From the NCBI GenBank assembly GCA_004298675.1, contig SCRI01000025.1, positions 8,211 to 72,210 on the forward strand: a stretch of 64,000 nt of DNA. Reading direction: 5' to 3'. The notes under the pieces are model-generated. The model was not told the origin of the DNA. It did no database searches and worked only from the letters and a program-made list of their open reading frames with translations. Origin of the DNA: a bacterium. Lineage in GTDB: Bacteria; Vulcanimicrobiota; Vulcanimicrobiia; Vulcanimicrobiales; SCRA01. This document shows positions 5,193-44,958 of this stretch, piece after piece (the stretch's first letter is position 1; each line of letters begins with the position of its first letter). The translations under genes were made by a program, and so were the position numbers.

Positions 5193-6141
5193 CGGTCGTG
5201 ACGCGCCGTTCGAGCATGCCGGCGCCGATCACCACTTCTTCACCTTTGCGAACGAAGAATCGTCCGCGCCGCCCTTGGGCGGCGGCCTCAGCCAGCCGGT
5301 CGAGATGCTCGAAGGCCAGGTCACGGCCACCCAGCCACAAGCGCAAAACGCGCCGTAGCAACGGGCGTGGAAGCTCGCCGATCCGCTCGTCCAGCCCCCC
5401 CTCTTCCGCCGCCGACAGGCTCAACGCCTCCGCGGCGCGCTCGTCGAGATAGGCGTCCTCCTCACGGGCCAGGTGCGCCAAGCGAGCGATGGCCTGGTCA
5501 GCCGAGGGTTCCACCTCACGTAGATGCTGCAGCAGCACACGGAGGCGGTTGCGCCGGTAGCGGGCGTCGGCGTTGGTCTCGTCCAGTGCGTACGGCAGCC
5601 CATGGGCATGGCAATAGGCCCGCAGCTCGCCGTGCCCACGCCCCAGCAGGGGCCGCAACAGCACCAAGCCGCTACCCATGGGCCGCTGCTGCGGCATCCC
5701 GGCCAGGCCGCGCAATCCGGTACCGCGCACCAGCGCCAGCAGCACCGTTTCCACCTGATCTTCCAGGGTATGCGCAGTGGCGATCGCCGTACAGCCCCGC
5801 GCCAGCGCCATCGTCGCCAGCGCGTCGTAGCGGCCGGCACGCAGCGTCGCCTCGTCACCAGCCGGCCCTTGCAGCACCGTGCTCTGGAACGGCAGGCCCA
5901 AGCGCGAGGCCACGCCCAGGGCCACCCCTTCGTCCCGCTCCGCCGCCGCCCGCAGCGCGTGGTTCACGTGCAATACCACCAGCGGGAGGCCAGATACACG
6001 GGCCGTCGCGGCAGCCGCAGCCGTCAGCGCCACGGAATCCGGTCCACCGCTGCAGGCCAAGGCGACGCCGCCTGGGGGCGTAGCCGCCAGCGCCTCGGCC
6101 AGGCCATGCTCCAACTCCTCGAACGGCTTGGCTCCCCTCAT
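5161..6141 (-). CDS. tilS: tRNA(Ile)-lysidine synthase
   Basis: N-type ATP pyrophosphatase that converts C34 of the CAU-anticodon tRNA-Ile to lysidine, so that it reads AUA. The P-loop-like SGGPDS is at residues 31-36, and HVNHALR follows near 58, both diagnostic. At 326 residues it is on the short side; the C-terminal substrate-recognition region is reduced compared with E. coli TilS (about 430), as in many non-proteobacterial forms. The ATG overlaps the smpB stop by 4 bp. Confidence 0.94.
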   Translation of the reverse strand: MRGAKPFEELEHGLAEALAATPPGGVALACSGGPDSVALTAAAAATARVSGLPLVVLHVNHALRAAAERDEGVALGVASRLGLPFQSTVLQGPAGDEATLRAGRYDALATMALARGCTAIATAHTLEDQVETVLLALVRGTGLRGLAGMPQQRPMGSGLVLLRPLLGRGHGELRAYCHAHGLPYALDETNADARYRRNRLRVLLQHLREVEPSADQAIARLAHLAREEDAYLDERAAEALSLSAAEEGGLDERIGELPRPLLRRVLRLWLGGRDLAFEHLDRLAEAAAQGRRGRFFVRKGEEVVIGAGMLERRVTTDGEDSEPDRN

Positions 6142-9935: not shown

Positions 9936-11210
9936 ATGCTCGATCGCACGTTACTCCGCCACGACCCCGAGGCGGTCCGCCGCTCGCTGCGCCGTCGCGG
10001 CCAGGACGAGAGCAGCGTCGACCGCCTCGTCGAGCTGGATCGCGCGGCGCGCGAAGCACAGACACGGTCGGACGCACTGAAAGCGGAGAAGAACGCGCTC
10101 TCCGCTACGATTGGAAAGGCCGCCGACAAGAAGGCGGCCGCCGCCGCGTTGCGGCCGCGGCTTGCGGCGATCGACGCGCAGATCGAAGCCTCCGACGCGG
10201 CCTGCGCCGCGGCGGGCGCAGAGATCGACGAGCGCATCCAACAGCTCCCCAATCTCCTAGCCACCGCCGTTCCCGACGGCTTGGACGAGAGCGCCAACGT
10301 TACCGTACGCACGTGGGGGACGCCACGCGCCTTCGATTTCGAACCGAAACCACACTGGGATCTCGGCGAGGCGCTGGGTATCCTCGACTTCGAGCGGGCC
10401 CGTAAACTGGCCGGCGCGCGCTTCGCTGTGTTCAGCGGCGACGGCGCGCGGCTGGAGCGCGCCATCACCGCGTTCTTCTTGGACCGCGCCGCCCGGGCCG
10501 GCTACCGTGAGATGGCGCCACCCATCATCGTCAACCGCGAAACCATGTGGTCGACCGGTCAGCTCACCAAGTTCAGCGATGACATGTTCCATCTCGACGA
10601 TTGGGATTTCTTCCTGATTCCAACGGCGGAGGTGCCGCTGACCGCGCTGCATCGCGACGAGATCCTCGACGGCGCGATACTGCCGGCGCGCTACACGGCC
10701 TATACGCCCTGCTTCCGCAAAGAGGCGGGCGCCGCTGGGCGCGACACGCGCGGACTGATCAGGCAACACCAGTTCGACAAGGTGGAACTGGTCTGGCTGA
10801 CGCTGCCCGAAGCGAGCTTCGACGCGCTCGAGCAACTTACCGCGGACGCCGAGCGGCTGCTCCAAGAGTTGGAGCTGCCGTTCCGTACCGTCGCGCTGTG
10901 CGGCGGCGACACGGGCTTCAACGCGGCGATGACCTACGATCTGGAGGTCTGGCTGCCCAGCCAAGGAGTCTATCGAGAGATCAGCTCTTGCAGCAACTGC
11001 ACGGACTTTCAAGCGCGGCGCGCGAGCATCCGCTTCCGGCGCGAGCCCAAAAGCAAGCCCGAGTTCGTGCACACCCTCAATGGCTCGGGTCTGGCGGTGG
11101 GGCGAACGCTCATCGCCGTCCTAGAAAACTACCAGCAAGCCGACGGAAGCATCCGCGTGCCCGCTGCACTGGTTCCTTACCTAGGCGGTCAGCGCACCAT
11201 CGGGGGCTAG
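9936..11210 (+). CDS. serS: Seryl-tRNA synthetase
   Basis: Class II aminoacyl-tRNA synthetase of 424 residues. The N-terminal long coiled-coil arm (about residues 28-100, rich in Ala, Lys and Glu) contacts the tRNA-Ser variable arm. Class II motif 2 is [20 protein letters not shown] and motif 3 is [20 protein letters not shown], both intact. A tRNA-Ser gene lies 8 kb downstream. The end is 15 bp from the convergent repressor gene. Confidence 0.97.
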
Positions 11211-11225
11211 CGCAGAGCCCACGCC

Positions 11226-11534
11226 TCACGCGAGCAGCTTGACGAACGTCTCCGTGAGGCGCTTGAGCTCGCGCTGGTTCACGCCGCCCTCGGCCTTCGG
11301 CCGAATGCACTCGGCCATGCTGTTGGCCATCAACTGCACGGTCGCACGCTCGAGCGCGGCCCGCGCCGCCGCCATCTGCTGCGCGATGGCGTGGCAGTCC
11401 CGCCGCTCCGCAATCATGCGCTGAATGGCACGGACCTGACCTTCAACGCGCCGCAGGCGCGCCGTCACGTCCTTGACGACCTCCTCCGGCACGCTCAGCG
11501 GGGCGCCGTCGTTCTCCCGACCTGCTGCAACCAT
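11226..11534 (-). CDS. CsoR/CstR-family transcriptional repressor
   Basis: Small all-helical repressor (DUF156, 102 residues). Relative to copper-sensing CsoR, the first and last ligand cysteines are present (C47, C76, spacing 29), but the position of the intervening histidine is Ser72. A Cys-Cys pair at this spacing without the His is the pattern of CstR, which senses persulfides rather than copper. I prefer ATG 11534 over the GTG two codons upstream, because a -10 box ends 6 nt before that ATG. It is divergent from the DUF2892-RND operon and probably represses both directions. Confidence 0.88.
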   Translation of the reverse strand: MVAAGRENDGAPLSVPEEVVKDVTARLRRVEGQVRAIQRMIAERRDCHAIAQQMAAARAALERATVQLMANSMAECIRPKAEGGVNQRELKRLTETFVKLLA

Positions 11535-32907: not shown

Positions 32908-33165
32908 ATGATCGAAGCAGCAAGCATCCTGACGGCGCTCATCGCGCTGGCCTACGCAAGCCAGCGCTGGGGTTACGACAGCAGAGACCGTGTGGAGAGC
33001 TCCGAATGGGCACGCCGCGGCGCGTGGTCCGCACGCACCGCCGCGCCAGCCGTTCAGGCTGCAGGCGCGGGGCGGCAATGCCGGCAGGGCCGGTATTCCG
33101 CCAGCGCGGCGGCACGGGCGTTCGAGAAGGCCACGCGATGGCTGCCGCTGATTCGCCGCGCGTGA
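32908..33165 (+). CDS. Small single-span membrane protein
   Basis: An 85-residue ORF. An N-terminal hydrophobic helix (about 4-18) is followed by RWGYDSRDR and SSEWARRG, resembling tiny membrane proteins of other high-GC bacteria with an RWGxDSRD sequence after the helix. GAGGT is placed 7 nt before the ATG. The last third overlaps the convergent MGMT-Ada gene by 112 bp, so the C-terminus could be shorter in relatives. Function unknown. Confidence 0.5.
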   Translation: MIEAASILTALIALAYASQRWGYDSRDRVESSEWARRGAWSARTAAPAVQAAGAGRQCRQGRYSASAAARAFEKATRWLPLIRRA

Positions 33166-33833
33166 ACGCAACTCGGCAGACAGTAGACGTGGGTCGTGTC
33201 GCTGCCGACGAAGCGCTCGCCACAGCGTGCCAACCGTTCCAGCTCCAATACGTCGACGCCCTCGCCCTCCAGCAGCAGGCGCTTGGCGGAGGAGCCCAAC
33301 GCATACTCACCGAGCGATCCGTCGGTACGAACGACGCGGTGACAGGGCACCAGCAGCGGCACCGGATTGCCACCGAGCGCGGATCCCACCGCGCGCACGG
33401 CTTGGGGTCGGCCGATCTCCCGCGCCACCCAACCGTACGGACGCACCTCACCGAGCGGGATCTCCAGCGCCTTCTCCAAGACCGCGCGCTGGAACTCGCC
33501 ACAGCCGCGCAGATCAAAACGCACGCGCGCGCGCCGATCTCCGGCTAGCCTGCGCGCCACCGCCTGCGCCGTCCCGCGGGGCGGCAACCCCGCATACACG
33601 CGACGGTGGAAGCGCTCGAAATGCTCGCGCTCAAAGGCCGCCTCGCCCCGCAAAGCGGGGACTACGGCGCTGATGCCGCGCTCGCTGAAGGCGACGAAGA
33701 GCGGACCGACCGCGCTCTCCTCGCGCCAGTACCGGTCCGCCAAGCCTACCCGCTCGAGCACTGCGGGCAGCAGCGTTGCAGGCGCAGGGCGTGCGCGCAG
33801 GCTCCTCAACTCCGCCACGATCCGTTCCTCCAT
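33054..33833 (-). CDS. Methylated-DNA-cysteine methyltransferase fused to a C-terminal Ada zinc domain
   Basis: A 259-residue repair protein. Residues 110-195 are the O6-alkylguanine transferase core with acceptor C164 in PCHRVV. Residues 205-255 are an Ada metal-binding domain with four cysteines C218, C222, C250 and C253, which in E. coli Ada bind zinc and take methyl groups from phosphotriesters. In E. coli the zinc domain is N-terminal and followed by AraC helices; here it is C-terminal and no AraC domain exists. It begins 1 nt after the sigma-factor stop, so the two are one unit. Confidence 0.9.
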   Translation of the reverse strand: MEERIVAELRSLRARPAPATLLPAVLERVGLADRYWREESAVGPLFVAFSERGISAVVPALRGEAAFEREHFERFHRRVYAGLPPRGTAQAVARRLAGDRRARVRFDLRGCGEFQRAVLEKALEIPLGEVRPYGWVAREIGRPQAVRAVGSALGGNPVPLLVPCHRVVRTDGSLGEYALGSSAKRLLLEGEGVDVLELERLARCGERFVGSDTTHVYCLPSCVHARRISGSHRVAFSNARAAALAEYRPCRHCRPAPAA

Positions 33834-33834
33834 C

Positions 33835-34425
33835 TCACGATACCTCCGCCGCGTTCAACGCTTCGCGCAGCTTGCCCACGCCGCGATGCACGTAGACTTT
33901 CACCGTGCCGAGCGGCTGCCGCAGAATCTCCGCGATCTCCGCGTAGGTCAACCCGTCAATGTGGCGCAGCGTCAGCGGCGAGCGCAGGCGCTCGGGCAGC
34001 GCCGCGATCGCTGCGGCCAACCCGCGTGCCGCTTCGGCGCGCTCGACGACTGCCTCAGGGCGCTCCCAGGGGCGATCGGCCAACTCCAAGGGCGTGCCGT
34101 CATGACGCTCTAGCGGAACGCGCGGCACGCTCTTCCGGCGCACGCGGTTGCGCACGACGTTGAGCAAAATGCGATAGAGCCACGGCCGTAGCGCCAGCGC
34201 GCCTATCCGTTCCGGCCCGTAACGCGCCAACGCGCGATAGGCTCGCACGAAGGCGTCCTGGGCGGCCTCCTCGGCGTCTCCGGCGTCGCCCAACAGATGA
34301 TACGCGCAGCCGAAGAGGCGATGTTGGTAGCGGGCTACCAGCGTCTCGAACGCACCGTCTAGATCGGCGGCCAACGCCGCCAATAACGTTCGTTCCCGCT
34401 TGCCCGCTTCGACCGAGCCTTGCAC
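33835..34425 (-). CDS. ECF-type RNA polymerase sigma factor
   Basis: A 196-residue sigma factor. Region 2 covers FETLVARYQHRLFGCAYHLL, then GDAEEAAQDAFVRAYRAL; region 4 covers IAALPERLRSPLTLRHIDGL and YAEIAEILRQPLGTVKVYVHRG. No anti-sigma gene is next to it; instead it is followed directly by the alkyl-DNA repair gene. I took the GTG start at 34425 for a family-like length; an ATG at 34494 inside the palindrome is an alternative. Confidence 0.85.
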   Translation of the reverse strand: MQGSVEAGKRERTLLAALAADLDGAFETLVARYQHRLFGCAYHLLGDAGDAEEAAQDAFVRAYRALARYGPERIGALALRPWLYRILLNVVRNRVRRKSVPRVPLERHDGTPLELADRPWERPEAVVERAEAARGLAAAIAALPERLRSPLTLRHIDGLTYAEIAEILRQPLGTVKVYVHRGVGKLREALNAAEVS

Positions 34426-34476
34426 GCCAACAGAAACACGGAGCGGCTGCAATCCGTTACAGAGTCCCGCCCCGCA

Positions 34477-34494
34477 ATGGGACCAAAGTCCCAT
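34477..34494. promoter_or_regulatory. Perfect palindrome, DosR-box-like operator
   Basis: ATGGGAC-CAAA-GTCCCAT, seven-base arms. The GGGAC-N4-GTCCC core equals that of the mycobacterial DosR box (GGGACTWWAGTCCC). It lies in the divergent region between the sigma-factor gene and the unknown gene starting at 34553. Confidence 0.5.
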
Positions 34495-34552
34495 GCGCAA
34501 GAGCGCTTCGCCGCAGGGTGGGCCGCGCGCAAGTCCGCGAAATGCACCTGTG

Positions 34553-35218
34553 ATGCATCGCACAGAGGCACTTCCGCCGCCGATCGACCCAGCCTGGCAG
34601 GCGTGGGTCACGGAGTGCTGCGACCCCTACGCTTGGCGCAAGCTCCACGCCGCGGTTGCCGGCATGGCCGCGACCCCACCGACGCTGGCTGACGTGCTCT
34701 CATGGCAAGACAGCGGCATCGTGCCGCCGGCCGATCAGGCCTGGGCGTTGGGCGAGGTCCTCTTCGATGCGGGCATCGCCTGCGCCAGTGGTCTCGCCGC
34801 ACTATGGTTCGCCGGCCGCCTGCCGGCGATCGTCTGCATCATGGCATCGCGCGGCGGCCGCTGGCCCCAGATCCTTCACGCGCTGGCCTTGGCAACGGCA
34901 CCGCGCGCAGTCGTCGATTCACAACCCGGCGGCCTCGCGCTCGTTCCCAGCCCCTATCGCGAGATCGTCACGCTCACCGGCACCGAACGCGCCACGTTGC
35001 GCGAGCTTTGGCGCACGTGGGGTGGACGGCCCCGCCTTCCGGCACCGACCTCCGGATACTATCGCGGCCTGCACGAGATCGTCGCCGACGTCGACGCACC
35101 TCCGGCGGAGCGCCGGCGCCTGCTCGATGCGATGCTCTGCGCCGACCTCCCCAGCGGCTGGCCGCACGCGGGTCACGGCGAAAGCGAACCCGCGAATCTG
35201 CGCGCTGCCAGCGGCTAA
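34553..35218 (+). CDS. Protein of unknown function
   Basis: A 221-residue ORF, the only sizeable frame on this strand between the sigma-factor gene and narI, with composition like real proteins (PPADQAWALGEVLFDAGIA; GYYRGLHEIVADVDAPP). No motif recognised and no signal peptide. It ends with a 4-bp convergent overlap with narI. The start could be ATG 34493 or 34553; I favour 34553, leaving the palindrome upstream. Confidence 0.45.
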   Translation: MHRTEALPPPIDPAWQAWVTECCDPYAWRKLHAAVAGMAATPPTLADVLSWQDSGIVPPADQAWALGEVLFDAGIACASGLAALWFAGRLPAIVCIMASRGGRWPQILHALALATAPRAVVDSQPGGLALVPSPYREIVTLTGTERATLRELWRTWGGRPRLPAPTSGYYRGLHEIVADVDAPPAERRRLLDAMLCADLPSGWPHAGHGESEPANLRAASG

Positions 35219-35889
35219 GGGCGGGCGCCCCGGCGGTACCACATGACGACCTGGTAAGGACGCCAGAGGTAACCCAACGGCAACGACACCAGATGAACCA
35301 GGCGCGTGAACGGGAAGAGCACTACGAGCAGGAACCCACCGGCCGCGTGGAGCTTCACGAGCATTGGCAGCGGGGTCACGGACTGCAGCGACGGCGAAAG
35401 CGTCGCCAGCGACCAGAGCCAGGCACCCGCGGTTGCCGGATACCAGAGGCCGCCAAAACGCAACGTCACCGCGATCGCGGCACCCAGCACCACCTGCCCC
35501 AACAGAACCAGCAGCAGGACCACGTCCATCGGCGTCGTCACCGCGCGCACGCGCGGGTTCAGCAGCCGGCGCGTAAACAACGCGACCAGTCCCGCGATCG
35601 AGAGCAGACTCAAACCGACACCCAGCACCTCGAGCGGGTAGGCGCGCCCGCCTCCGAGCAGATCGATCCACGGTTGCGGTGCCAGCCACGCCAGCGTATG
35701 CGCGGCGAGGATGAAGAGGATCGCGTAGTGCCACGGCACGGAGCCCCAGAAGAGCCTCGAGCTCTCGAGAAACTGCGAGGAGAGGCTCGAGTACGAGAAG
35801 CGGGCGCCGACGAAACGGTAGATTCCGACGACGACCGCGAGAGCCACGGCAAGATAAGGGAAGACCGCAAACCAGAAGAGCTCAGACAT
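35215..35889 (-). CDS. narI: Respiratory nitrate reductase gamma subunit (cytochrome b)
   Basis: Membrane subunit that takes electrons from quinol and passes them to NarH. It has 224 residues and five helices. Haem-b ligand histidines are visible in VPWHYAILFILAAHTLAW (helix 2) and VKLHAAGGFLL/TRLVHLVSLP (helix 5). The start is ATG 35889, overlapping narJ by 8 bp. Last gene of the nar operon; no nitrate transporter follows. Confidence 0.95.
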   Translation of the reverse strand: MSELFWFAVFPYLAVALAVVVGIYRFVGARFSYSSLSSQFLESSRLFWGSVPWHYAILFILAAHTLAWLAPQPWIDLLGGGRAYPLEVLGVGLSLLSIAGLVALFTRRLLNPRVRAVTTPMDVVLLLVLLGQVVLGAAIAVTLRFGGLWYPATAGAWLWSLATLSPSLQSVTPLPMLVKLHAAGGFLLVVLFPFTRLVHLVSLPLGYLWRPYQVVMWYRRGARP

Positions 35890-36418
35890 CGCGTGTCCCT
35901 CCCACGGGAACGGCGGCGAACAGCGCCTCCAGCGTGGCACCAAGCGCGCGCAGCAGCGCGCCATAGGGGTTGCCACCATCGAGCGCGGCGATCATCGTGC
36001 GCAGCGCCGGCGCGATCAGGTCGATGGCGATCTCCCGGGCCAATTCGTCATCCTCACAGACGGCGGCGAAGCGCACGATCGCGGAGAGATGATCCGGCAG
36101 ATCCCATTCCGGCAACGTAAAGGCTTGCGCCGCATAGGTCTGGCGCAGCATCGACATGAGCGCGCCGCGCTTGAAGCTTTCACCGAAGAGATGGTAGCCG
36201 ACGTACGGACAGCAGACGGGGCTGAGATCGAACGTCGTCGTGTACCGCTCCTGGACGCGCGCGAGCGGTTCGCCGCCAAGCGCATTCACCGCCCCTTCCA
36301 CGTCCGGCTCCGGGCCGAACGTGGAGGACAGCCGCCGCACGCGCTCCTGCAGATCCGCGCCCGGATACTCCAAGAGATCGGCGAAACAGGCGAGACGCGC
36401 ACGCTGCTCTACACTCAT
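35882..36418 (-). CDS. narJ: Nitrate reductase assembly chaperone
   Basis: Private chaperone (NarJ/TorD family) that holds the NarGH complex while molybdenum cofactor is inserted. It has 178 residues, all-helical. The family stretch TTTFDLSPVCCPYVGYHLFG is followed by KRGALMSMLR. It overlaps narH by 4 bp and narI by 8 bp, as expected for a tightly coupled operon. Confidence 0.93.
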   Translation of the reverse strand: MSVEQRARLACFADLLEYPGADLQERVRRLSSTFGPEPDVEGAVNALGGEPLARVQERYTTTFDLSPVCCPYVGYHLFGESFKRGALMSMLRQTYAAQAFTLPEWDLPDHLSAIVRFAAVCEDDELAREIAIDLIAPALRTMIAALDGGNPYGALLRALGATLEALFAAVPVGGTRDV

Positions 36419-37908
36419 GCTCCCCGTTTCGGCCTGGCACGGAAGCCAAAGCCGGTCTCGCCTTTCTGCGAGAGCGGATCGTTCCAGAGTTCCTCGATCG
36501 CGGCATCCCGTTGATAAGGCGGGATGACGAATCGCTCGTCGTACGTGGGCAGCGACGTGAGTTTGAAGATTCCGTCGGCCTCATCCGGAGTCAGGCCGAC
36601 CTCGGCCAGCATCGACCCCGCCTTCTCCTTGCTGATATCGCCCACACTGACGGAGCGGCGGTGCGCGCGAACGGCGATCAACCGCCGCAGCACGTAACTG
36701 ACCGGCGCGATGTCGCCCGCCGAGAAGAGGTTGGCCATGAACTGGAGCGGTACGCGCGCTTTGTCGATCGTGCCGAAGAACTCGGTCTCCTCGATGTCAT
36801 ACGAGCCCTTCTTCATCGAAGCCATGACCGGCGAGAGCGGCGGAATATAGAACAGCATCGGCAGCGTCCGGAACTCCGGATGCAGCGGGAGAGCGAGATG
36901 CCAGCGCTTGACGAACTTGTAGACGGGGGAACGCTGAGCCGCGTCGATCCACTCGTCGCTGATGCCGTTCTTCTTCGCCGCAGCGATGACGGCGGGATCG
37001 AAGGGATCGAGAATCATCTCGCGCTGCGCCTCGACCAGGCGTTGCTCATCCACCTTGGCGGTCTCCTCGATGCGGTCCGCGTCGTACAGGACTACGCCTA
37101 GGTAGCGGATGCGCCCCACACACGAGTGGAAGCACGCCGGCGCCTGACCCGTCTCCAGGCGCGGGAAGCAGAGCACACACTTCTCCGATTTGCCGGTCGA
37201 CCAGTTGTAGTAGACCTTTTTATAGGGGCAGCCGGAGATGCACATGCGCCAGCCGCGGCATTTCTCTTGGCTGACCAGCACGATGCCGTCCTCGCCGCGC
37301 TTGTAGATCGCCCCCATGGGGCAGGCGGCGGAACAGCCGGGATTGGCACAGTGGTTGCAGATGCGCGGGAGATAGAAGAATACCATGCGCTCCAGGTCTG
37401 TGAGCTGGCGGCGCTCTTCTTCATCCAGGCCCTTCAGGTTGGGATCGTTGGCGGCGTAGACCGGCGAGCCACCGAGATCGTCGTCCCAGTTCGGGCCGGC
37501 CTCGATGTCCATGTACTCGCCGCTGACCATCGAGACGGGGCGCGCCGTGGGCTGATCGTCGCCCTCGGGCGCATCGAAGAGATCCTGATACTTGTAGGTC
37601 CAGGGCTCGTAGTAGTCGTCGAGCTGAGGCAGACGCGGATTGTAGAAGATGTTGCCGAGCGCGCCGCCTTTGCGCTGCAGCTTCAGGCGCAGCTCGTTGC
37701 CGTCGACCATCCAGCCGCCGCGGTACTTCTCCTGATCCTCCCAATGCGTGGGGTAGCCCGTTCCGGGCTTCGTCTCCACGTTGTTCCACCACATGTACTC
37801 GGCGCCCTTACGATCCGTCCATACATTCTTGCAGGCGACGGTGCAGGTGTGGCATCCGATGCACTTGTCCAGATGGAACACCATGGAGATCTGGCGGCGA
37901 ATGTCCAT
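36415..37908 (-). CDS. narH: Respiratory nitrate reductase beta subunit
   Basis: Electron-transfer subunit of 497 residues with four iron-sulfur clusters. The first cysteine set is CIGCHTCTVACK (C16, C19, C22, C26). The next are CNHCANPGCSAACP and CRGWRMCISGCP, where a Trp replaces one Cys as in the 3Fe-4S cluster of NarH, then CVLCFPRLETGQAPACFHSC. The start is ATG 37908 with GGGGAG upstream; the longer frame runs inside narG. It lies 11 bp after the narG stop. Confidence 0.97.
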   Translation of the reverse strand: MDIRRQISMVFHLDKCIGCHTCTVACKNVWTDRKGAEYMWWNNVETKPGTGYPTHWEDQEKYRGGWMVDGNELRLKLQRKGGALGNIFYNPRLPQLDDYYEPWTYKYQDLFDAPEGDDQPTARPVSMVSGEYMDIEAGPNWDDDLGGSPVYAANDPNLKGLDEEERRQLTDLERMVFFYLPRICNHCANPGCSAACPMGAIYKRGEDGIVLVSQEKCRGWRMCISGCPYKKVYYNWSTGKSEKCVLCFPRLETGQAPACFHSCVGRIRYLGVVLYDADRIEETAKVDEQRLVEAQREMILDPFDPAVIAAAKKNGISDEWIDAAQRSPVYKFVKRWHLALPLHPEFRTLPMLFYIPPLSPVMASMKKGSYDIEETEFFGTIDKARVPLQFMANLFSAGDIAPVSYVLRRLIAVRAHRRSVSVGDISKEKAGSMLAEVGLTPDEADGIFKLTSLPTYDERFVIPPYQRDAAIEELWNDPLSQKGETGFGFRARPKRGA

Positions 37909-37919
37909 CGTGACTCCCC

Positions 37920-41533
<3,614 letters not shown>

Positions 41534-41537
<4 letters not shown>

Positions 41538-42034
41538 CGAGTGCTCCTACTCACGAGGGCACGCCGCACGCCGGTCAGACGCTTGCGCCAGATGACCGCC
41601 ATTGCGACGAGCGCGACGATCGCAAAGAGCAGGCCCAGCAGCGGAAAGCGCGCCGCGTCCCGCTGCGGCGCCGCGCTCGCGACGGCGCCCAGATACGCGA
41701 TGACGTCGGCTCGCTCCGCCGCCGTGAGCGGATGCCGCGCGAAGACCGGCTGCATCGACGGAAAAGCGATCGTCGCCAAAACCGGCTCCAGATTCTTCGC
41801 GCCGCCGTAACGCGTGAATACCGTCGTCAGATCGGGGCCATACGTTCCGCCGGCCGCCCCCGCGCTATGGCATGCGATGCACGGCGTGCCTCCGTTCTGC
41901 ATGCGAACCGCGCCGCTGAACAACCGCGCCCCCAACGCCGCATCTCCGCCCGCAGGCGCCTGCGCCGACACGAGCCCCGGCACGGCGATCGCCAGGAACA
42001 GCAGGACCAACATCCATCCCACGCGTGCTGCCAT
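41534..42034 (-). CDS. Membrane-bound monohaem cytochrome c, first gene of nar operon
   Basis: A 166-residue class I cytochrome c: signal sequence or N-terminal anchor (about 8-25), haem motif CIACH at 52-56, probable axial methionine M94 in FPSMQPVF, and a C-terminal membrane helix (about 130-149). It faces outside the cytoplasmic membrane and may exchange electrons with NarI or another partner, recalling NarC of Thermus nar operons. I chose ATG 42034 over GTG 42040, since the -10 box ends 6 nt before this ATG, predicting a leaderless message. Confidence 0.85.
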
Positions 42035-42040
42035 GGCCAC

Positions 42041-42076
42041 ACCCTAGCCCGCCGCGGTTCCACCCCGGTTCCACCC
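42041..42076 (-). promoter_or_regulatory. nar operon promoter with two 11-bp direct repeats
   Basis: CGGTTCCACCC occurs twice in perfect tandem (42055-42065, 42066-42076; plus-strand reading). On the transcribed (minus) strand, 8 bp separate the repeats from TAGGGT (42046-42041), a -10-like box, which is 6 nt before ATG 42034. No good -35 is present. SARP-type activators bind repeats of exactly this 11-bp period, 8 bp from the -10. Confidence 0.7.
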
Positions 42077-42130
42077 GCCCCCGTGGCGATCACGCGAGCA
42101 TCGCGTGCGCAGTCGCAACGTCAGCGGCGG

Positions 42131-42265
42131 GGCGAGCGACGTCGCCCCTGAGGGGGCTCTGAGGCGCGCGCGGAGCCATGGATGGCGAGAGCGCGCGCGA
42201 AGGCAGTAGGAGCGGTGCAGGATCGCACCGCGACGCGCGGCCCCTCAGGGGCGATGTCGCTCGCC
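42131..42265. repeat. 26-bp inverted repeat flanking an 83-bp spacer
   Basis: Left arm 42131-42156 and right arm 42240-42265 match as inverted repeats in 24 of 26 positions (arms start GGCGAGCGAC). The spacer contains CGGTGC/GCACCG and CGCGCGC elements. It lies between the nar promoter and the regulator gene stop. It could be a two-way terminator or remnant of a small mobile element; no transposase is near. Confidence 0.6.
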
Positions 42266-42292
42266 CAGACGCGGGCAAGCGCGCACAGGAGC

Positions 42293-43420
42293 CTAGGCGC
42301 GCATGGCGTGGTAGAGGGCTTGGGTTTCCTCGAGCGGGAGGACGCCCAGTTCTTCGTGCAGAGCGCGGGCGCACATCTGGTACTGGCGCAACGCATCGGC
42401 GCGGCGGCCGTGGCGCCAGAGGAGCGCCATGAGATCGCGGTGGACGTCCTCGAGACACGGGTCGACTTCGAGAGTGCGGCGGTAGGCGGCAACGGCAGCC
42501 TCGACCTCCCCGCCGTCGTCATGGAGGCGTGCGGCCCGGCGCAGCACAGTCATGTACGTCTGACGAAGCTCGCTCCGGCGCTCTCGGCACCAGTCGCTAT
42601 ACGGCTCGTCCTCGAGATAGTCGCCAACGTAGAGCTGTGCCGCGGCTTCGAAGGCGGCAAGGGCTGGTTCCCGGCAGCCCAGACGCTCCTGGCGCACGCC
42701 CTCATTGGAGGCGGCGAGGAACTCCTTGGCATCCAGACGGTGGGGCGACGCAACGTCAAAGGCGTAGCCCTCGCCCTCGGTCATGACAAACGCGGCACGC
42801 GAGCCGCCGGCAGCCCCGAGGCCGCGGCGCAAGTAGTGGACCGCCACTTTCAGCATCGTGACGGCGTCCTTAGGTGGCAGTTCCGGCCAGAGCATCTCCA
42901 CGAGCTCGTCACGGGCGACGATCCGGCCATAGTTGGTGAGCAGGATCTTCAGCACCGTCAACGGACGCCGGCGCACGAAGCCGCCGGCAGGCAGGACGGC
43001 GCCGCCGCGCGTCGCCGTGAAGGTGCCCAGACAACGCAGATCGAGGGTCGTGGCGACGGTGCGGCGCTGCTCCAAGAGGATCAAGACGTTGCCCGAGGCC
43101 TCATCGGGGCGCATCGCAACCCCTGCGGAGAGGTGCAGCGGCCGTCCTTGACTGTCGCTGGCGACCAGCCCGCTTGGCCGCGCGGCGCCAGCCGCAGCAT
43201 CGTTCAGGCTGCGTTTGATCGGGCAGCGCGCCCCGCTGCAGAGCGGCCGCCCGTCGGCATCCCGGCAGACGACGATCTCGTAGCAGCGGTGCCGTAGCGC
43301 CTCGCGAGAACTCCGGCCGAAGAGCCTACCGGCGGCCGCACTCCAGCCGACGATGCGCCAGCGGCCGTCGATGAGAACGCTCGCGGTACCGGCGCCAAGC
43401 GGCGCCCCCGAATCTTCCAT
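42293..43420 (-). CDS. PAS-SARP (BTAD) transcriptional regulator, probable nar activator
   Basis: A 375-residue regulator. Residues 10-115 are PAS-like with four cysteines (C46, C52, C61, C66: a CYEIVVC, then PLCSGARC pattern) that could bind an iron-sulfur cluster or zinc. Residues 125-205 are an OmpR-like winged helix (PLTVLKILLTNYGRIVARDE). Residues 228-375 are a BTAD/TPR helical domain. This is the SARP architecture with a sensor added. It lies directly upstream of the nar promoter on the same strand. Confidence 0.88.
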   Translation of the reverse strand: MEDSGAPLGAGTASVLIDGRWRIVGWSAAAGRLFGRSSREALRHRCYEIVVCRDADGRPLCSGARCPIKRSLNDAAAGAARPSGLVASDSQGRPLHLSAGVAMRPDEASGNVLILLEQRRTVATTLDLRCLGTFTATRGGAVLPAGGFVRRRPLTVLKILLTNYGRIVARDELVEMLWPELPPKDAVTMLKVAVHYLRRGLGAAGGSRAAFVMTEGEGYAFDVASPHRLDAKEFLAASNEGVRQERLGCREPALAAFEAAAQLYVGDYLEDEPYSDWCRERRSELRQTYMTVLRRAARLHDDGGEVEAAVAAYRRTLEVDPCLEDVHRDLMALLWRHGRRADALRQYQMCARALHEELGVLPLEETQALYHAMRA

Positions 43421-43512
43421 GCGCAGACCCTCGCGGGCGGCGGTTACACGACGATCATGGCCGATCGCCCCTGCGGGCGTGGGGAAACTGCCGAGAAGGA
43501 ACTGAGAACCCG

Positions 43513-44958
43513 CTACTTCACGAAGAAGGTGGCGTCACCGGGCATCACGGGGACAAACGTCAAGACGATCACGGCCACGGCGCAGATGGCAACGGCGATC
43601 CACGGCAACTGCGACGGCGGGCGTACCTCGGGATGGCTAAAGCGCTCCACTCTGGCGTACATCGCGCGGATCACCTTGAAGTAGACGTAGAACGAGACGG
43701 CCGAACCGATCACGAGCAGTGCGCCCAGCGGCCAGTAGCCGGTATGGATGGTCGTCGAGAGGATGAAGATCTTGCCGAGGAAACCCGCGGTGATCGGCAT
43801 CCCAGCCAGCGAGAGCATGAAGAAGGTCATGGCCGCGGCTAACAGCGGCTGGCGCGCAGCCAAGCCCTCGTACGCCACCAGTTGCGTCCCCTCTTCGCGG
43901 TCGCTCGAGAGCAGGGCGGCCACCGCGAACGCGCCGAGGTTCATGAACGCATACGCCGCCAAGTAGTACACGGCGCTGCGTATCCCCAACTCCGTCGCGC
44001 CGGCAAGCGCGGCGACGATATAGCCGGCTTGCGCCACGGCCGAGTAGGCCAACAGCCGCTTGATATCGGTCTGCGCGAGCGCCCCCAAATTTCCCACCAG
44101 CATCGACGCGGCCGCAAAGATGAAGGTTGGAAGCAACAGCCAGTGGGCGTCCGGCTGGGGAATGGCGGTGTAGATGACGCGTGCCAGCGCCGCCAGGGCC
44201 CCCGCCTTGGTGGCCACCGACATGAACGCGGTGACGGGCAACGGTGCCCCTTCGTAGACGTCGGGTGCCCAGATGTGGAACGGCACCAGCGCCAACTTGA
44301 AGGCCAGACCGATCAGGAAGATGCCCATCCCTAGCGCATAGAGGCCGTGAATCCCGGTAGCCGGGTGGATCAATGCGGAGATGGTCACCGTCCCCGTCGC
44401 CCCGAACAGCAGCGCCATACCGTACAGCAGGAAGCCCGAAGCGGTCGAGGAGAGGACGAGGTACTTGAAGCCGGCCTCTTTCGCAACTTCGCGATCGCGC
44501 GCAATGGCGCACAGACAGTAGAGCGACAACGAGAGGATCTCGAGGCCCAAGAAGAGCGTCATTAGGCTCCCGGCGCCAGCCATGATCATCGCGCCGGTGG
44601 AGGACCAGAGCACCAGCGCCACATAAGCGGGGCGATCCTCGCTGACGCCGCGGCGATTGAACAGCATCAGCGTTACCAGCGTGGAGAGCAGCACGATCTC
44701 CTGGAAGACCACGCTCAGCCCATCGAGCACGAAGCCCCCGCCAAACGCGAGATAGTGGACACCGTACGACAGCGAGGCGTAGAGTCCAGCCATGATCGTG
44801 GCCATCACACCCAGGAGTATGGCGGTACCGTTGGCGATGCGGCGGGGCAACAGCAGATCGGCGAGTAGCGCGATCACCGCGGTGCCGCCGACGATCATCG
44901 CCGGCAGCAGCGCCTGATAGTCGAGGGTCTGGACGTATTGAAGGTAACCGCCCATCAA
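43513..44958 (-). CDS. nuoN: NADH-quinone oxidoreductase subunit N
   Basis: Antiporter-like membrane subunit of complex I, 481 residues, about 14 helices. The conserved helix-7 lysine region (GLAFKLALVPFHIWAPDVYEG) and the broken-helix LAYSAVAQAGY are present. Last gene of the 14-gene nuo operon. Its ATG overlaps the nuoM stop by 4 bp. Confidence 0.96.
   Translation of the reverse strand: MMGGYLQYVQTLDYQALLPAMIVGGTAVIALLADLLLPRRIANGTAILLGVMATIMAGLYASLSYGVHYLAFGGGFVLDGLSVVFQEIVLLSTLVTLMLFNRRGVSEDRPAYVALVLWSSTGAMIMAGAGSLMTLFLGLEILSLSLYCLCAIARDREVAKEAGFKYLVLSSTASGFLLYGMALLFGATGTVTISALIHPATGIHGLYALGMGIFLIGLAFKLALVPFHIWAPDVYEGAPLPVTAFMSVATKAGALAALARVIYTAIPQPDAHWLLLPTFIFAAASMLVGNLGALAQTDIKRLLAYSAVAQAGYIVAALAGATELGIRSAVYYLAAYAFMNLGAFAVAALLSSDREEGTQLVAYEGLAARQPLLAAAMTFFMLSLAGMPITAGFLGKIFILSTTIHTGYWPLGALLVIGSAVSFYVYFKVIRAMYARVERFSHPEVRPPSQLPWIAVAICAVAVIVLTFVPVMPGDATFFVK

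Follow-up and report, generated by a model that had tools for sequence, protein, structure and literature searches.

The window, by which we mean the whole 64,000-nucleotide stretch of DNA that was analyzed, carries a nitrate reductase operon on the minus strand. A membrane-anchored c-type cytochrome (41534..42034, -; Pfam Cytochrom_C), likely starting at ATG 42034 and in a NarC-like position, is encoded first, followed by narG, the nitrate reductase alpha subunit (37920..41537, -; TIGR01580, 1547.5 bits against a cut-off of 1084), narH (36415..37914, -; TIGR01660, 661.6 bits against a cut-off of 524), the narJ chaperone (35882..36418, -; PF02613) and a narI-like membrane subunit (35215..35979, -), whose function was inferred from position and synteny. 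The 798-aa narH open reading frame as listed was over-extended, homology beginning near its residue 300. The narI-like gene was kept 3' of NarJ in L031, L032, L034, L037, L038 and L049. A regulator of 375 aa (42293..43420, -) is encoded upstream of the operon, and its own upstream neighbor is a NuoN gene (43513-44958; Pfam). Elsewhere in the window, the gene at 33835-34611 (-) belongs to the sigma-70 family, and the one next to it (33054-33833, -) encodes methylguanine methyltransferase and Ada zinc-binding domains.

An interspersed element bounded by inverted repeats (42115..42285, no strand assigned) lies between the regulator and the nar promoter. It is ~170 bp long with 32-nt arms that are 91% complementary, and the genome has ~6 more near-full copies at 95-98% identity, frequently at the ends of contigs; the element resembles a MITE or REP and was inserted there. 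The inverted repeat at 42124-42272 was considered as part of the switch and rejected, as it belongs to this multi-copy element.

The regulator was assigned the architecture PAS-wHTH-BTAD, SARP-type, using Pfam, AlphaFold and PDB matches. The PAS sensor domain (residues ~10-120; 43061..43393, -) was recognized from the model and its PDB matches, with Pfam PAS found in homologues. It is followed by a winged-helix DNA-binding domain (residues 124-225; 42746..43051, -; Trans_reg_C PF00486, 37.8 bits, above cut-off) and a BTAD domain (residues 229-374; 42299..42736, -; PF03704, 88.7 bits against a cut-off of 22.1). In the AlphaFold model (mean pLDDT 80), strands and helices in PAS-like order precede the wHTH. 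Matches to the C-terminal 250 residues of the model were AfsR, with Z 21.0 over 241 residues, and EmbR, with Z 20.2; the N-terminus of the predicted model matched PAS domains including those of PpsR and FixL (Z ~12). An OmpR-type winged helix followed by BTAD is the domain order of a SARP, and the two Pfam matches confirmed an earlier note on this DNA that had placed a SARP protein directly upstream of the operator. Classical antibiotic SARPs of actinomycetes have an N-terminal wHTH, an actinomycete host and an antibiotic target; here a PAS domain precedes the wHTH, the host belongs to Eremiobacterota and the target is nar, and the protein is therefore termed only SARP-type, by fold and promoter rule. 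AfsR positions that contact the DNA backbone (R94, K95, W74 and P79) are kept as R198, R199, W178 and P183. H195-Y196 in the recognition helix occupy the positions of AfsR S91/R92, and the base-reading residues T88 and R92 of AfsR are replaced by V192 and Y196, so the AfsR half-site cannot be transferred to this regulator.

Conserved cysteines accompany the PAS fold, as in cysteine-PAS sensors. Across 23 PAS-BTAD sequences C46, C61 and C66 were invariant and C52 varied; of the four-cysteine PAS sensor proposed earlier, the fold (model, Z ~12) and three of the cysteines stood and the fourth did not. Because the oxygen-sensitive DnrS of Thermus is a precedent, oxygen or redox state is the signal we prefer, sensed via the three conserved cysteines, a guess by analogy to which we give an even chance. 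In Eremiobacterota relatives a GAF domain takes the place of PAS ahead of the same wHTH-BTAD, so the sensor was exchanged while operator and target stayed. In Thermus DnrS, an N-terminal cysteine motif was noted (CAHLVQGKDPFGRPLCARCP; L111 4837-4950); its C-x14-C-x2-C pattern resembles the regulator PAS motif (E 1e-6 over 37 residues) and is an alternative candidate oxygen sensor of DnrS.

At the nar promoter, CGGTTCCACCC was found twice, at 42055-42065 and 42066-42076, as perfect tandem 11-bp copies. Read in operon sense (42076 -> 42032), the order is GGGTGGAACCG GGGTGGAACCG, cggcgggc, TAGGGT, gtggcc and ATG. The upstream half-site (42066..42076, -) and the downstream half-site (42055..42065, -) each have the core GGAACC, and the 3' end of the latter is 8 bp (cggcgggc, 42054-42047) from the -10 element TAGGGT (42041..42046, -), which is without a -35 and is kept as TANNNT in relatives. 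The two repeats described in the earlier note and their spacing, like the missing -35, were thus verified in the letters. The nar operon message is probably leaderless, since only six bases separate the -10 from the ATG (42034) of the cytochrome c gene. No nearby sigma-70 promoter with a -35 was found around the nar start. Within the window there was no other perfect 11/11 tandem with period 11, and the hexamer-11-hexamer-9-TANNNT geometry occurred at a single place. By a published rule (PMC10936776), the target promoters of SARPs carry direct repeats with a period of 11 or 22 bp, the 3' one ending 8 bp short of the -10; the nar promoter has this spacing. Taken with the co-occurrence in the class and the recurrence in other clades described below, the candidate operator is very probably the cognate site of a SARP-type activator.

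Two other readings bear on the promoter itself. The GGAAC motifs, present at the window operator and at the sites of relatives, could belong to an ECF sigma-factor promoter as its -35, GGAAC being a typical ECF -35 core. The distance between the motif and the -10, however, is 10 or 21 bp as against the 16-17 expected, the motif stands in two copies exactly 11 bp apart, and the homologous position in Proteobacteria has GTNACC with the geometry unchanged; we regard an ECF promoter as extremely improbable. The regulator might also be a repressor that blocks the promoter from the repeats, which overlap the -35 position, where a repressor could act too. Against this, a promoter without a -35 looks activator-dependent, and AfsR and DnrS are activators, which leaves repression very improbable.

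The exact operator pattern occurred once in the 3.03-Mb genome, and the preferred activator is therefore pictured as a local switch. A genome-wide regulon in its own genome was rejected, as matches with two mismatches numbered 10 against 20 in the reversed control. A single CGGTTACAC is present at 43441-43449, 27 bases before the regulator start, and had been taken earlier as a hint of autoregulation. This was not supported: the half-site is real but, as evidence, at chance level, no second copy was found 11 bp from it, the single copy is not conserved, and an operator pair upstream of the regulator gene was found for 0 of 14 regulators checked.

The operator was searched as GGAACC-N5-GGAACC-N9-TANNNT across 117 genomes of the class (Eremiobacterota). 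Eight sites were found in 6/117 genomes, as against 2 sites in the reversed control, and the regulator was found in the same 6/117. NarG was present in five of these six and in no other of the 117; the sixth genome (G116) is 74% complete, and its contig L053, on which the site and cytochrome c lie, stops a short way beyond them. Coincidence in the same six of 117 would arise by chance at ~1 in 3 billion if genomes are independent, with only 5 genera represented. The regulator gene of G050 is oriented divergently to the nar operon, which the operator still faces. The repeats are conserved with the regulator-nar linkage in 6/6 Eremiobacterota genomes, which, at the level of sequence, supports the earlier proposal that a SARP-type PAS regulator acts on the nar-promoter repeats.

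With only 5 genera behind the sites, the regulator, nar and the operator may have moved between genomes as a set. A stronger form of this would have the repeats functionless and kept through a recent spread of the whole regulator-nar block. The three do co-occur as a block, and one chloroflexotan locus (L153) has the linkage intact without the repeats; yet intact linkage with degraded repeats was not found in Eremiobacterota, the members differ in gene order, orientation, flanking sequence and the 5-nt and 9-nt spacers, and NarG falls to 60-64% identity between members with the hexamers exact. The 11-bp geometry also outlasts half-site replacement between phyla, and a second exact site stands before an unlinked coxB in two genomes. 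Mere hitchhiking of the repeats is accordingly held to be highly unlikely.

The second exact operator before the unlinked coxB was seen in G013 and G116 (L127 1501-1532; L130). The coxB behind it has a C-terminal cytochrome c domain and is divergent from a globin-like gene. In three Eremiobacterota loci (L004 870-1406, -; L053 ~11020-11490; L003 220-690, -) a P-loop protein comes first behind the operator, before cytochrome c; it is MobB-like by eye, and the L004 copy is without a Pfam match.

Proteobacterial and chloroflexotan homologues were drawn from one scan of genome contigs. A common layout of hexamer, 11-bp period, 9 nt and TANNNT was found beside homologous regulators in both phyla, with a half-site that differs by clade: GGAACC in Eremiobacterota, GGAAGT in Chloroflexota and GTNACC in Proteobacteria. 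The conservation of the 11-bp period in related genomes, put forward in the earlier note as a check, was thus seen within Eremiobacterota, and the geometry recurred in Chloroflexota and Proteobacteria. GTTACC-agtct-GTAACC-9-TACCGT (L034) and GTCACC-ggagt-GTCACC-9-TATTTA (L049) lie 3' of PAS-BTAD genes, and L039 and L070 have tandem arrays of GTNACC half-sites. The pattern G[GT]NACC-N5-G[GT]NACC occurred 17 times in the 9.9 kb downstream of proteobacterial regulators and twice in the remaining 679 kb of the same loci, a roughly 580-fold higher density beside the regulators. Full geometry was present in 13/22 proteobacterial loci as against 0.73 in shuffles (0/300 shuffles as high), and a scan of periods 7-15 and gaps 4-14 peaked at period 11 only. 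The strict consensus was absent in 9/22 proteobacterial loci, several of which have near-matches or divergent gene order. The exact GTNACC and TANNNT pattern gave no exact match in the genomes of L037, L048 and L049, because -10 boxes or half-sites deviate.

Four Chloroflexota loci (L037, L151, L152 and L153) have the regulator adjoining cytochrome c-narGHJI, and three of them show GGAAGT-like repeats with an 11-bp period, separated from a TA-box by 9-10 nt; in L153 a search found no repeats despite the regulator-nar linkage. The recognition helix has HY in all six Eremiobacterota (GGAACC), HE in three Chloroflexota (GGAAGT) and HA in L153. Half-site and recognition helix thus appear to covary, a suggestive pattern with few independent points. 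Other Chloroflexota BTAD regulators, not near nar (L052, L060, L069 and L073), likewise tend to be followed at short distance by direct repeats of 11-bp period ahead of a TA-box, seen in 7-8/17 loci of the period scan. The repeat rule may be general for BTAD regulators. A single monophyletic clade of nar-only regulators was rejected, as the nar label would have to change 5 times along the tree; the placement of DnrS, on a long branch, is uncertain.

Pho boxes have the same 11-bp period and distance to the -10. The repeats might accordingly serve another OmpR/PhoB-class winged-helix activator as Pho-box-like sites (TGTCA-N6-TGTCA), the BTAD protein acting elsewhere, and proteobacterial sites such as that of L049 (TGTCACCGGAGTGTCACC) do resemble Pho boxes. 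The cores GGAACC of Eremiobacterota and GGAAGT of Chloroflexota, however, are unlike the Pho box, and the operator is confined to genomes with the BTAD regulator and, in proteobacterial loci, concentrated beside it to the degree given above. We consider service to another activator quite improbable, and the SARP-type regulator is retained as the protein proposed to bind the repeats.

Homologous regulators were found beside several kinds of respiratory operon. They adjoin nar in L034, L038, L049, L070 and L074, and stand beside idrP1P2BA-like clusters in L040, L048, L054, L058, L065, L068 and partly L066. These clusters encode two MauG-type (MauG/CCP) peroxidases, a Rieske subunit and an AioA-like subunit; the idr assignment rests on gene order and family, and by TIGR models the large subunit is of arsenite-oxidase type. 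The idr literature examined names no such regulator. Further regulators are encoded beside type II DMSO-reductase-family enzymes (L047, L051 and L056), nosZ (L036) and a bd-like oxidase (L043). The idr-like loci carry GTNACC-type operators, with two operators in succession in L054 and L068. In proteobacterial loci the first gene after the operator usually encodes a small protein of ~100 aa (...SFVARIWLE...WRGHIRHVQGEEE.YFQ...). The L040 copy (5734-6030) is without a Pfam or NCBIfam match, and similar open reading frames are present in L036, L038, L048, L049, L051, L054, L056, L058, L065, L066, L068, L070 and L074.

Anatomy, predicted fold, exact site, co-occurrence and conserved geometry were computed directly, and from these we infer binding, activation and signal. 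With high confidence, we propose that the SARP-type PAS regulator binds the tandem repeats and activates cytochrome c-narGHJI. Its PAS domain would sense a redox or anaerobic signal. By analogy to AfsR, two protomers would then bind head-to-tail on the two 11-bp repeats in place of a -35 and, as in the AfsR initiation complex, would bring RNA polymerase to the TAGGGT -10 box, holding on to sigma region 4. The cytochrome c-narGHJI operon would thereby be switched on from a probably leaderless start. We also lean, with less assurance, toward a widespread and hitherto unrecognized family of one-component respiratory regulators in at least three phyla, in which a redox sensor (three-cysteine PAS, or GAF) joined to a SARP unit would switch alternative-acceptor operons (nitrate, iodate-reductase-like, type II DMSO-reductase, N2O and oxidases) via one promoter layout, the half-site changing with the recognition helix.

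These results offer a concrete candidate operator and a testable mechanism for BTAD-type respiratory regulators, Thermus DnrS being the one member studied in the literature found, and a candidate regulator and operator for iodate-reductase-like clusters. The SARP promoter rule appears here far from antibiotic synthesis, outside actinomycetes, in an uncultured soil bacterium. The cysteine PAS motif, also found at the DnrS N-terminus, becomes a candidate oxygen sensor.

The nearest known system is DnrS of the Thermus thermophilus nitrate respiration conjugative element, a GAF-BTAD protein encoded beside nar that is oxygen-sensitive, an effect attributed to its GAF domain, and needed for Pnar transcription; this literature gives no DNA site for it (PMC5748679, PMC7694296). 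Both proteins adjoin cytochrome c-narGHJI, as do those of the four Chloroflexota loci (L037, L151-L153) and several Proteobacteria, and the wHTH-BTAD C-terminus of DnrS is 31% identical to that of the regulator (E 5e-18). DnrS differs in adding GAF domains and in working with the CRP-type DnrT; the regulator has no GAF, and is therefore a DnrS homologue that was not filed as DnrS. Oxygen sensitivity and the need for Pnar are known for Thermus DnrS only. The Thermus Pnar/Pdnr intergenic region contained no 11-bp or 22-bp hexamer repeat with at least 5 matches, and no convincing repeats were found in L111 or in Deinococcus (L112). Full-text literature searches returned nothing relevant on a SARP with nitrate reductase or on PAS-BTAD in denitrification. 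A BTAD activator of nar is thus already known in DnrS, and the novelty claimed earlier for SARP-type nar control gives way on the idea and survives for the operator site. Against the published work found, the operator, the SARP geometry outside actinomycetes, the PAS/GAF exchange and the links to iodate-reductase-like, type II DMSO-reductase, nosZ and oxidase operons, all read from sequence, appear to be new.

AfsR and other Streptomyces SARPs share the wHTH-BTAD fold, 11-bp direct repeats, the 8 bp to the -10 and the want of a good -35. AfsR has a C-terminal NOD-TPR where the regulator has an N-terminal PAS, and the two differ in half-site and base-reading residues; Streptomyces SARPs serve secondary metabolism in an actinomycete, whereas the regulator is tied to nitrate respiration in a non-actinomycete. 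Mycobacterium tuberculosis EmbR likewise combines the wHTH-BTAD fold (Z 20.2) with an extra signal-input domain, but in EmbR this is a C-terminal FHA and other genes are controlled. In enterobacteria, FNR and NarXL activate narGHJI upon anaerobiosis and nitrate (summarised in PMC6282519). Those proteins and their DNA sites are unrelated to the ones described here, where one soluble one-component protein appears dedicated to the operon.
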